From Paratrimastix pyriformis (taxonomy: Eukaryota; Preaxostyla; Paratrimastigidae), in NCBI GenBank assembly GCA_027972325.1, contig JAPMOS010000024.1, positions 22,501 through 86,500 of the forward strand: a stretch of DNA of 64,000 nt. Reading direction: 5' to 3'. Below, in pieces: positions 6,924 to 59,572 of this stretch. Below the pieces are notes generated by a model, which ran no database searches, was not told the origin of the DNA, and was given only the letters and a program-made list of their open reading frames with translations. The position numbers and the translations under genes were made by a program. Each line of letters begins with the position of its first letter. Position 1 is the stretch's first letter.

Positions 6924-9900
6924 TCACCCAATGGATGCAGTCAGGGGAAGGAGGGGCATGGGAAGAGGCAATGTCGGAGAAGGAGAAGGAGAAGGAGAAG
7001 GAGAAGGAGAAGGTGCCGGTGTTGGTGCTGGTGCTGGTGCTGCTGGTGGTGGAGGTGGAGGTGGAGGTGGAGGTGGAGGTGGAGGTGGAGGTGGTGATGT
7101 TGTTGTTGTTGTTGCTGCTGCTGCTGCTGCTGCTGCTGCTGCTGACGCTCTTGAACTTGCCATCATCATATCGAAGAACGGGCTGACACCAGAGGGAGCA
7201 ACCGCCTCTTCAGCCAGCACCCGACTGAGGCGAAACGCAGGGTTGACCGACGTTGGGGGGATATCCAGAAATTTGGTGGATGATTTGGGGTGGTCGCCAG
7301 GCGCGGGTGGTGGCGGTGATGTGGTTCGATGCTGCTCTGCCGTGAAGGAGTCCCATTCCGGGGCGGAGATGAGCAGGGGGCACACATGGGCCGGTTTGTC
7401 ATTGTCAAGATGATCATGGGCTACCTGGCGGGCCGCTTGGGCAATCCGCTCAAACGAGCCGTCGTCGACAAGGCCCGCTTCGGCCAGGCCGAAGACGAAC
7501 ACCGACAGGAACTTGGCGCCCTCCCACTCCAGCATCCGATCGCGTGTGGCCACGACCCGCGCCACCCCGTGTTCGCGCAGGGCCAGGCCCGTCTTGCCCG
7601 TGTAGCAGGCACACAGAGCGGCCGCTTGCAACCCAGGGAGACACCCGGCATGCTCGAGGTAGCTGAGCAGCTCGGGGGCAGTCAGTTCAGTGCATCCGGC
7701 GTATTGATCGTGCAAGATTTGGCCCTCCCACTTGCCGTGCGAGACGAGAACGAAGGCCGAGGGCCGACAGGTTTTGATGGCATCTGGGAGAAGGAGAGAG
7801 CAGAGAATGATGAGGATGATGATTGATCAGATGATTGGATGATGATGATGGTGGTGGTGGTGGCAGTGATGATCGAGTGATGATTGGGTGGTGGTGGTGG
7901 CGGTTGATTGGGTGATGAGTGGGTGATGATTGGATGATGATGATGATGATTGGATGATGATGATTGGATGATGATGATGATGATTGGATGATGATTGGAT
8001 GATGATGATTGGATGATGATGATTGGATGATTGGATGATGATGATTGGATGATGATGATGATGATGCTCTCCCTCAACGAAGGCAAGCGTCAACCGGACC
8101 TTGCAGCGCAGCCTTGGTAGCTTGGGATAACAAGTGCACCCGCAAGTTCTGGAGGAGGAGGAGCCCAAGACAACCAGACGTGAGAACCATCATCATCATC
8201 ATCATCATCATCATCATCATCATCATTCACCGTCCATCGATCAATCTCGGACAGACCAGCTTCCGGTACCGGCAAACACGACTGAAGACCTTCTCCAACT
8301 CGGCGAGACAGTTGGTCAGGGGGTCAGTCCCGTCCGGGTTTGCACTTGCGACGAGCATCGACAGTTCGGGGCCCTCGGGCGCGGACCGGAGCGGAGCAGG
8401 TGCCACCGCTTCGGGATGTGGTTGCTGACAGCCGCCGCCCCCAAATCGATTGCAAAAGATGATGATGATGATGATGATGATGATTGGATGATGATGATTG
8501 GCAGATGCTGATGATGATTGATGATGATGATGACTGGATGACTGGATGATGATGCTGATGATGATGATGATGATGATGATGATGATGATGATGATGATGA
8601 TTGGATGATGATGATTGGATGATGATGATTGGATGATGATGATTGGATGATGATGATTGGATGATGATGATTGGATGATGATGATTGGATGATGATGATT
8701 GGATGATGATGATTGGATGATGATGATTGGATGATGATGATTGGATGATGATGATTGGATGATTGGATTGGATGATGATGATGATGATGATGATGATGAT
8801 GATGATGATGATGATGATGATGATGATGATGATGATGATGATGATGATGATGACGGATGACTGGACGATGACTGGATGATGACTGGATGATGATGATGAT
8901 GATGATGATGATGATGATGATGATGATGATGATGATGATGATGATGACGGATGACTGGACGATGACTGGATGAGTCACAGACATCACTCGGAATGGCAAG
9001 AATCGTGTTTTCGGGTAACGTCGCATCCATGTACCCGCCACAGTCGCCACAGCGCAGGGTGGGCATCACGCGATGCTCCTCGGGGCTGATCCCTTCGATG
9101 AAACACTGAAAGCACAGTGCGGGGGCCCCTTGCGGGATGTCCCACAGGCGCGTTGTCGGGTTGCCGGCCACCCGCGGCCAGTAGGGTGCCGAGGACAGCT
9201 CCCCGGGCGGTGGGAAGACCATGGCTGTGTCCTGGTGGCCGCGGGTGCAGTGCCACTCCAGGCGGATCTTCAGCTGGTCAGGATCCGCGCCCGCGGGAGG
9301 CTGATGGGAGCATTTGAACTGAAGCCGAAGCAGCTGGGCGCACAATGTGGGTTTTTCCGTCAGGGCGGCCAGTGGGACATCAGGGTAGCACGCCCGCAAC
9401 ATCCCCAGAAAATCGGCGCCGGCGGCCCGACACGAGACGGTCTCCGTGGTGGCGGGCGGGCAGGCCATGGGTGTCGTGCTGCCCCCGAGTCCCATAATGG
9501 ACATGGCATCCTCGATTGTGCGAACGATTGAGCCCAACGATGGCGTGTGGGTGTGGGTGTCGTCCACAAAGCTGCCTGCCTTGGCACGGCCTGGCGTCGG
9601 CGAGGGGCCTGACGGTGTGGAGAGCAGGGGCGTCGGTTCGACCTGTTATGCAGGGATTTCCGCCCCAAAACCGACGCATTCCAAAGACAGACATGTCAAG
9701 ATGACGGAAGGGGGGCAAAAAAAGGGATGGATCAGGTCATCATCATCATCCGATCATCGACAGCATCATCATCCGATCATCATCCGATCATCATCCGATC
9801 ATCATCATCATCATCATCATCATCATCATCATCATCATCATCATCATCATCATCATCATCATCATCATCATCATCATCCGATCATCATCAACGTCATCAT

Positions 9901-59100: not shown

Positions 59101-59572
59101 CACAGCAGCACCAACATCATCAACACCAACATCATCAACAGCAACAGCAACAGCAACAGCAACAGCAACAGCAACAGCAACAGCAACAGCAACAGCAACA
59201 GCAACAGCAACAGCAACAGCAACAGCAACAGCAACAGCAACAGCAACAGCAACAGCAACAGCAACAGCAACAGCAACAGCAACAGCAACAGCAACAGCAA
59301 CAGCAACAGCAACAGCAACAGCAACAGCAACAGCAACAGCAACAGCAACAGCAACAGCAACAGCAGCACCCACAGCAACACCCACAGCAACACCCACAGC
59401 AGCACCAGCACCAACATCAACATCAACACCAGCATCACCAATACCAGCGACAACAGCACCAACACCAACACCAACAGCAGCAGAGGAGATGACATTGCCG
59501 AGCGTTTCACCAACACCCCCGACGGATCCCCCGACCTTCCCTGTCCTCCCCTTGGAGGCGGTGGTTGTGTGA
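53181..59572 (+). CDS. CHAT-C: pseudokinase / ARM / CHAT protease protein (true start unresolved)
   Basis: Exons 53181-53752, 53957-54297, 54347-57492, 57713-57877, 57947-57995 and 58464-59572. They total 5,382 nt (1,793 aa from 53181) and all phases close. The kinase fold keeps a beta3 Lys (VVVKVYRP) and an alpha-C Glu, but the catalytic loop is HCNLKPTNV (Asp to Asn) and no DFG is visible (ACPDTW in its place). FIAPEL and DVYALG follow. The 3.1-kb third exon (1,048 codons) holds roughly 16-18 ARM repeats (for example FAQAGVARPLNELL, FERAGVAIPLVGLF) and then the Cys/His module (EWHCTHGH, LCFGC, LRCPEC). CHAT: His in VSHGKWD, Cys in LCACYTGKTG. A long Ala-Thr tail comes from an ACAGCA array. 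The coding frame is open leftwards into the inverted-repeat element, so the start may be element-derived or on an unseen 5' exon. Confidence 0.8.
57503..57665. repeat. AAAACACAC minisatellite
   Basis: Tandem ACAAAACAC units begin about 10 bp after the donor at 57493 and fill that intron. Confidence 0.9.
58092..58206. repeat. TGTTCTGTGTCA 12-bp minisatellite
   Basis: About nine copies in the intron before the CHAT exon of CHAT-C, followed by a copy of the dispersed ~95-bp repeat (58258-58313). Confidence 0.9.
59093..59470 (+). repeat. Coding (ACAGCA)n array, Ala-Thr tail of CHAT-C
   Basis: Hexamer array keeping frame through the CHAT-C C-terminus; CAA/CAG units could be length-variable. Confidence 0.85.

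Follow-up and report, generated by a model that had tools for sequence, protein, structure and literature searches.

A Cys/His-CHAT unit joined to different N-terminal parts in Paratrimastix pyriformis: a candidate family of receptor-proteases

Three genes, A, B and C, in a 64,000-nucleotide stretch of the genome of Paratrimastix pyriformis, an anaerobic free-living flagellate among the preaxostylan metamonads, each join a kinase fold, a Cys/His module and a CHAT domain of the caspase clan in one reading frame (the stretch, positions 22,501 to 86,500 of contig JAPMOS010000024.1, is referred to below as the window). What these genes have in common, together with a fourth gene elsewhere in the 56.06 Mb genome (C467; C-numbers denote contigs of this genome), is their back half, the Cys/His module plus the CHAT domain, which we call the Zn-CHAT unit. 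This unit is under constraint and keeps a His/Cys pair that aligns with that of a known CHAT protein; the kinase parts in front of it have lost catalytic residues, and front and back halves have been mixed. A preliminary description of the window had presented the genes as three paralogues with one architecture, which does not hold: what they share is the Zn-CHAT unit, behind front halves of more than one lineage. We propose that the family consists of one-piece receptor-proteases, in which a conserved Zn-CHAT effector would be carried by varied N-terminal sensor parts, a reading to which we give about an even chance.

Gene models and the shared back half

Splice sites of the three genes were picked by eye and the reading frame was then verified; each spliced model is a single open frame with zero internal stops that ends in the Cys/His module and the CHAT domain, and this in-frame splicing confirms all three genes where the preliminary description had placed them. 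The model of gene A has 10 exons (start 15238, stop 6924), all matched by the annotated protein PAPYR_5157, which adds two exons and differs in the last five residues. Gene A is thus one gene in the depositors' annotation, and the fusion of kinase fold, Cys/His module and CHAT domain is real. Genes B and C have six exons each (between 51122 and 45903, and between 53179 and 59572, respectively) and are open to the last codon, with models that are partial at the 5' end. In both, a long block of ARM repeats lies between the kinase fold and the Cys/His module, whereas no ARM profile in Pfam matches gene A. Gene prediction for P. pyriformis used Augustus with RNA-seq intron hints, followed by polishing with PASA and EVM (PMC10703272). 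The parts of the genes are listed in Table 1. The introns of gene A (window 7784-14998) have GTYYG at all nine donors of the by-eye model, and several of them are full of TGATGATTGG-type microsatellites.

Table 1. Parts of genes A, B and C, with coordinates in the window
Gene	Feature	Coordinates	Strand	Evidence
A	5' exons: MGNNES start, helical region, first half of EF-hand-like loop	14999-15238, 14725-14949, 14588-14671, 13794-14003 (span 13794..15238)	-	splicing; identical to PAPYR_5157 start; no Pfam match
A	Two extra exons of the annotated protein, absent from by-eye model	12900-13013, 12437-12559 (span 12437..13013)	-	PAPYR_5157 pieces placed in window
A	Kinase fold; HRN for HRD, no Asp at DFG site	11097-11591, 9984-10457 (span 9984..11591)	-	PF00069 2.5e-20
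A	Cys/His (Zn-like) module	8983..9462, in exon 8983-9642	-	module search and alignment; PAPYR_5157 mapping
A	CHAT domain, three exons, and low-complexity tail; His codon 7737-7739, Cys codon 7605-7607	8257-8424, 8100-8148, 6924-7783 (span 6924..8424)	-	splicing; CHAT alignments; PDB profile match
B	Kinase fold; HFK for HRD	50475-51122, 49676-50130 (span 49676..51122)	-	PF00069 1.2e-12; splicing; motif table
B	ARM repeats and Cys/His module (module 47273-47743), one exon	47273..49626	-	splicing; ARM_ARMC5 8.2e-07, under curated cut-off
B	CHAT domain, three exons; His 46812-46814, Cys 46683-46685	47054-47224, 46951-46999, 45903-46858 (span 45903..47224)	-	splicing; PF12770 E=0.012, under cut-off
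C	Kinase fold; HCN for HRD, DFG lost	53179-53734, 53957-54297 (span 53179..54297)	+	PF00069 2.7e-16; splicing; motif table
C	ARM repeats and Cys/His module (module 57025-57492), one exon	54347..57492	+	splicing; ARM_ARMC5 7.2e-10, under curated cut-off
C	CHAT domain, three exons, and low-complexity tail; His 58508-58510, Cys 58640-58642	57713-57877, 57947-57995, 58464-59572 (span 57713..59572)	+	splicing; CHAT alignments; PDB profile match

That the C-terminal domain is a CHAT domain, as first described, is borne out by profile comparison and by the residues kept among relatives. A genome search with the CHAT exon of gene C gave 10 matches at eight loci (A, B, C, C467, C444, C113 and two on C459), and a profile of these eight paralogues, compared with the PDB, matched 8tl0_A, a 'CHAT domain-containing protein'; the match (E=2.7e-8) spans profile positions 21-173 and pairs His and Cys. 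These residues, H87 and C131, are invariant in all eight paralogues, among 24 invariant columns, the other seven sequences being 36-75% identical to that of gene C. Profile-profile comparison of all eight rows with the canonical CHAT of the same genome gave P=3.6e-6 and covered both His and Cys; with just the rows of A, B and C the match was confined to the Cys block (P=1.5e-4), and an unrelated control (the Zn alignment) gave P=0.47. The Pfam profiles for the three proteins present a mixed picture: the kinase profile PF00069 is matched in A, B and C, the ARM profile falls under its cut-off in B and C, and the CHAT profile PF12770 is under its cut-off in B and finds nothing in A or C when single sequences are scanned. 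Among the eight paralogues, PF12770 matches four at E<=0.1 (best 5.4e-9). C444 scores 27.1 bits against a cut-off of 24 bits and is 45% identical to the CHAT domain of gene C over about 110 residues, and it is this identity, together with the match of the eight-paralogue profile to 8tl0_A, that ties A and C to the family; a single C444 piece gave no CHAT match in the PDB. Pfam scans of the CHAT parts returned no match to Peptidase_C14 (PF00656) and a Peptidase_C11 match to the gene C exon that is not significant (E=0.34), and scanning the CHAT rows against NCBIfam and PADLOC returned nothing convincing (best 0.014 and 0.0034, respectively). We regard the predicted membership of the C-terminal domain in the CHAT family as solid at the level of the family, with the divergent paralogues carrying the assignment. 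Elsewhere in the genome, at C90:235701-239135, a canonical CHAT domain (PF12770 36.4 bits, 1501-1935) shares its strand with an SH2 match (PF00017 22.3 bits, over cut-off, 2955-3320) that lies about 1.2 kb further downstream, and this locus is possibly a CHAT-SH2 gene.

The exon order first described (kinase, Cys/His module, an exon of about 55 residues, a 49-nucleotide exon and the CHAT exon) is present in all three genes, with the ARM block added in B and C only. The label 'linker' for the 55-residue exon does not stand, since the profile alignment to 8tl0_A starts inside this exon; together with the 49-nucleotide exon it aligns to the N-terminal part of the known CHAT protein. Identical intron phases had also been claimed, and this is correct for the final three introns, whose phases are 0, 0, 1 in each gene, but not for the rest, as judged by exon lengths: two further phases (2, 1), in and after the kinase, are common to B and C, and the kinase of gene A is split at another place, in phase 0. 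The 49-nucleotide exon and its matching peptide recur at both C459 loci, at C113 and at C444; at C467 no match to the GTYYG donor pattern is found at this exon, yet the annotated protein keeps the same peptide junction.

Of the eight CHAT loci, seven have a Cys/His module upstream of their CHAT exons. At the remaining one, C459:208291, the contig stops about 1.3 kb away in the upstream direction, which prevents a judgement on the module. In all seven modules a WHC..H motif, a CxxC, a His and CxxC, and three further Cys are invariant. Because Pfam gives only weak zinc-ribbon matches under the cut-off and the PDB no trustworthy match, zinc binding is a property that we infer; the module probably binds zinc, judging from its sequence. 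When A, B, C and C467 are compared in pairs over their Zn and CHAT parts, dN/dS is 0.16-0.50 in 12 of 12 comparisons, indicating that both parts are under constraint. A weak match to the module outside any CHAT locus was seen at C45:95771-95965 (E=5.2e-5, 34% identity over 67 residues).

Kinase decay and exchange of front halves

The kinase parts do not bear out a working enzyme in A, B and C, nor can these be intact kinases: the Asp of HRD is replaced in all three (the motifs read HRN, HFK and HCN), gene A has no Asp at the DFG site and gene C has lost DFG, and all three keep the VAIK Lys. At a further kinase-CHAT locus on C459 (C459a) the VAIK Lys is replaced by Gln, whereas the HRD and DFG Asp are kept, with DFG reading DQA. 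Thus at least one catalytic residue is lost at all four kinase-CHAT loci, each of which retains the catalytic-loop Asn, and the kinases of A, B and C look like pseudokinases. For comparison, kinase loci were taken from 30 of 104 genome matches; removal of the window, C459a and duplicates left 22 CHAT-less loci. In 15 of these Lys, HRD-Asp and DFG-Asp are all present, and in three more both Asp are present and the Lys is not aligned. ARM-like repeats lie near the kinase in 14 of the 22 (tblastn, E<=1e-3, within the cut stretch), and the kinase of gene C is 53-55% identical to those of five CHAT-less loci over about 260 residues. The same genome holds kinase-ARM proteins that resemble the front half of gene C and differ from it in having no Zn-CHAT unit and, in those 15 of 22 cases, an intact catalytic trio.

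Simple paralogy of A, B and C is rejected on the basis of the kinase identities. The kinase of gene A is 75% identical to that of a CHAT-less gene on C5, and 36% and 35% identical to those of C and B, respectively, which are 70% identical to each other; over the Zn-CHAT unit, A and C are 75% identical. By these comparisons the gene A kinase is of a different lineage from the kinases of B and C. In a tree of the Zn-CHAT unit, A, B, C and C467 form a clade with support of 95/95 (A and C group within it at 85/87, under the program's mark for strong support), indicating that one back half has been placed on three different front parts. At the nucleotide level the closest pair changes along the gene, from A and B in the Zn module (0.87) to A and C in the CHAT exon (0.82), which hints at recombination or gene conversion among the Zn and CHAT exons.

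The remaining front parts are diverse. Gene A begins with about 250 helical and EF-hand-like residues that have no Pfam match and PDB matches at chance level only; four long helices are predicted for residues 58-173 (AlphaFold, pLDDT about 41-60), the MGNNES start fits an N-myristoylation motif, and the EF-hand-like loop is a reading from the sequence, of which the CHAT-less C5 relative has a fuller version (DTDGNG..FLDLSEF, across an intron). C467 is one annotated protein of 2157 residues, PAPYR_8459, helicase/IBR-like with a Zn-CHAT end (the DHX-helicase match is weak, best E=0.00075, and the IBR match, E=0.00015, is just under the cut-off). Relatives of its helicase/RBR-like part are found on C469, C485, C4, C25 and C37, those on C37 and C25 matching the IBR/downstream part only, and none of these five appeared in genome searches for CHAT or the Zn module. 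At C113 a frame of 2001 residues has ARM repeats (ARM_ARMC5 1e-27, over cut-off) and a Zn module; at C459a the kinase is followed by a stretch that is ARM-like by eye, in which the ARM query from gene C found no match; and C444 has a low-complexity N-terminus.

Several further observations were made at these loci. Upstream of the Zn-CHAT gene of C444 lies a LINE-like element (C444:49060-53190, 360-4490) with an endonuclease match (PF03372 3.3e-14) and reverse transcriptase-like frames identified by eye. The annotated C467 protein starts with a stretch that is leucine-rich repeat (LRR)-like by eye, and LRR-like frames without a Pfam match were also noted by eye in the window at 42888-45673 (+), ending near gene B in convergent orientation. 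A frame at window positions 33709-34248 (-) has an OTU-like cysteine protease match (PF02338 E=0.013) under the cut-off.

Proposed mechanism and competing explanations

In the model that we favor, the Zn-CHAT unit (Cys/His module plus predicted caspase-clan CHAT cysteine protease) has been joined to several N-terminal parts: helical/EF-hand-like/kinase in A, kinase and ARM in B and C and similarly in C459a, ARM in C113, helicase and IBR-like in C467, and low-complexity in C444. The dead-kinase, EF-hand-like, ARM and helicase-like fronts would serve as sensors or docking platforms, binding a ligand, a partner or a host protein that has been tampered with. Coupling of sensor to protease would fall to the Zn module, through holding or releasing the CHAT domain. 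Ligand binding or clustering would free this domain, which would then cut a downstream protein, most likely as the start of a stress, death or anti-parasite response.

Several points weigh against this model, beginning with the fact that the analysis establishes anatomy, homology, conservation and domain exchange, whereas sensing, coupling, cleavage and outcome are all steps that we infer. A second pair, H202 and C222, is also invariant in all eight CHAT paralogues, so that the catalytic pair was named by alignment to the known CHAT protein; no CHAT chain in the PDB is matched when the profile is built from just the four close copies (A, B, C and C467), so that the divergent paralogues carry much of the weight in the family assignment; and AlphaFold models of full-length A and of the gene C CHAT exon were discarded as too poor (mean pLDDT 37.9 and 43.9, respectively). 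Loss of kinase residues does not go strictly with fusion, because four of the 22 CHAT-less kinases deviate (L034, L038, L043 and the poorly aligned L045) and the CHAT-less C5 relative of the gene A kinase keeps HTD and has lost the DFG Asp. Continuity from front part to CHAT is given for A, B, C and C467; in C459a, C113 and C444 the joining of the parts is putative. No known executioner was found, and the gasdermin profile PF04598 had no match in the genome, but control profiles matched nowhere either. Finally, none of three length- and word-limited protein searches (length windows of approximately 613-1950, 873-2777 and 213-679 residues, the second and third scoring 7999 and 8000 candidates chosen by most shared words) returned a B or C Zn-CHAT protein, so that B and C may be absent from, or differently modelled in, the published gene set. 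With the ARM/Cys-His exon of gene B as query, a single protein came back, PAPYR_5157, which is gene A, and the third search returned nothing at E<=1 among its 8000 candidates, PAPYR_5157 and PAPYR_8459 being outside its length range.

It is possible, if rather unlikely, that the family is instead a regulated housekeeping protease acting in the cell cycle, differentiation or stress, with no link to death or immunity, whose front parts choose its location or partners. CHAT domains resemble separases, according to one review (PMC12881547), and the front parts belong to multi-gene families of the same genome (kinase-ARM and helicase/RBR-like), both of which would fit such a role. One would expect wider conservation of a housekeeping protease, however, and our limited searches of protein, viral and prokaryote collections gave no relative beyond P. 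pyriformis: the protein searches, within their length and word limits, returned P. pyriformis proteins only, and searches for the module with two short peptide patterns each had 34 matches in viral contigs and 101 among prokaryotes (one genome each for 84,980 species), none of them confirmed. The repeated swapping of sensor-like parts onto one effector, accompanied by decay of kinase residues, is in addition the pattern of a receptor family, in which sensor exchange with enzyme decay is well known.

Improbable, in our estimate, is a more specific proposal, namely that the genes encode integrated decoys: copies of the organism's own kinase-ARM, helical/EF-hand-like kinase and helicase-RBR-like proteins would have lost enzyme function and gained a Zn-CHAT trigger, and parasite tampering would release the protease. 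Each decoy-type front part does have CHAT-less relatives elsewhere in the genome, and if the proposal were true it would provide a parallel in a metamonad, free of nucleotide-binding leucine-rich repeat receptors (NLRs), to the integrated decoys of plants.

Two further alternatives concern the activity of the parts. We think it very improbable that the CHAT-like domain is a non-catalytic scaffold: A, B and C are weakly similar to Pfam CHAT and catalysis is a prediction, but His and Cys are invariant in eight paralogues down to 36% identity and pair with those of a known CHAT, and dN/dS is below 1. Slightly less credit still is due to the view that the kinase parts catalyse by an unusual route and that phosphorylation controls the protease; some kinases with unusual motifs are active, A, B and C keep the VAIK Lys, and all four kinase-CHAT loci keep the catalytic-loop Asn, but the HRD Asp has become N, K and N, the DFG Asp is missing in A and C, and C459a has Gln for the VAIK Lys. 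Least credible of all is a gene-model artefact that would have merged two adjacent genes, one with kinase exons and one with CHAT exons, into each of B and C. The protein searches gave no annotated B or C protein, and both models are partial at the 5' ends; but in each of the two genes a single unbroken exon covers the ARM repeats and the Cys/His module, the splices preserve the frame and agree in phase, and the annotation, which used RNA-seq hints, gives A and C467 each as one protein with this back half.

Relation to known systems

The receptor-protease model can be set beside several described systems. The likeness to 8tl0_A, which we take to be a bacterial SAVED-CHAT protein of type III CRISPR that is presumably switched on by a cyclic nucleotide, lies in a CHAT domain with aligned His and Cys, and the match is limited to the CHAT part. 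RIPK/caspase-8 has a kinase-fold sensor upstream of a caspase-clan protease, as proposed here, with the protease recruited there and fused in P. pyriformis; the predicted helical N-terminus and the apparent pseudokinase of gene A recall MLKL, with no convincing Pfam or PDB match for this N-terminus. The comparison with RIPK/caspase or MLKL pathways made in the preliminary description stays an analogy.

Our searches of open-access literature gave no paper with a title or abstract that describes a kinase-ARM-CHAT or Zn-CHAT family, and to this extent the earlier statement that no such family had been described is upheld; fusions of proteases with kinase-like domains are, however, in print for fungi, where proteases that control gasdermins (S8 or CHAT) can carry kinase-like domains, according to a review (PMC12881547). 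Reviews of fungal cell death report CHAT or S8 proteases fused to repeats, NLR parts or kinase-like domains and acting on gasdermins (PMC12881547, PMC10197012). Within these sources, the fusion proteases of fungi that control gasdermins are the nearest described logic: the TPR-CHAT and NLR-CHAT proteins of Podospora likewise fuse a CHAT protease to repeat or receptor-like parts (PMC12881547, PMC10197012), whereas they belong to another kingdom, and ARM repeats, the Cys/His module and dead kinases distinguish the P. pyriformis family. The Craspase TPR-CHAT protein Csx29 (PMC9729208, PMC10028731) is similarly a repeat-bearing CHAT protease under sensor control, but its sensor is a separate RNA-guided effector, and it was not among the PDB matches of the eight-paralogue or four-copy profiles.

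CHAT receptors described in the sources consulted are bacterial and fungal, and coral genome papers also mention CHAT domains. The setting here is a genome in which a six-frame search found no Peptidase_C14 (caspase/metacaspase) match, although split exons or introns could hide one. With such a shuffled Zn-CHAT family in an anaerobic flagellate, the range of sensor-protease fusions would come to include Metamonada, and a testable set would be at hand, with one effector on at least three front parts and CHAT-less sister genes as natural controls.

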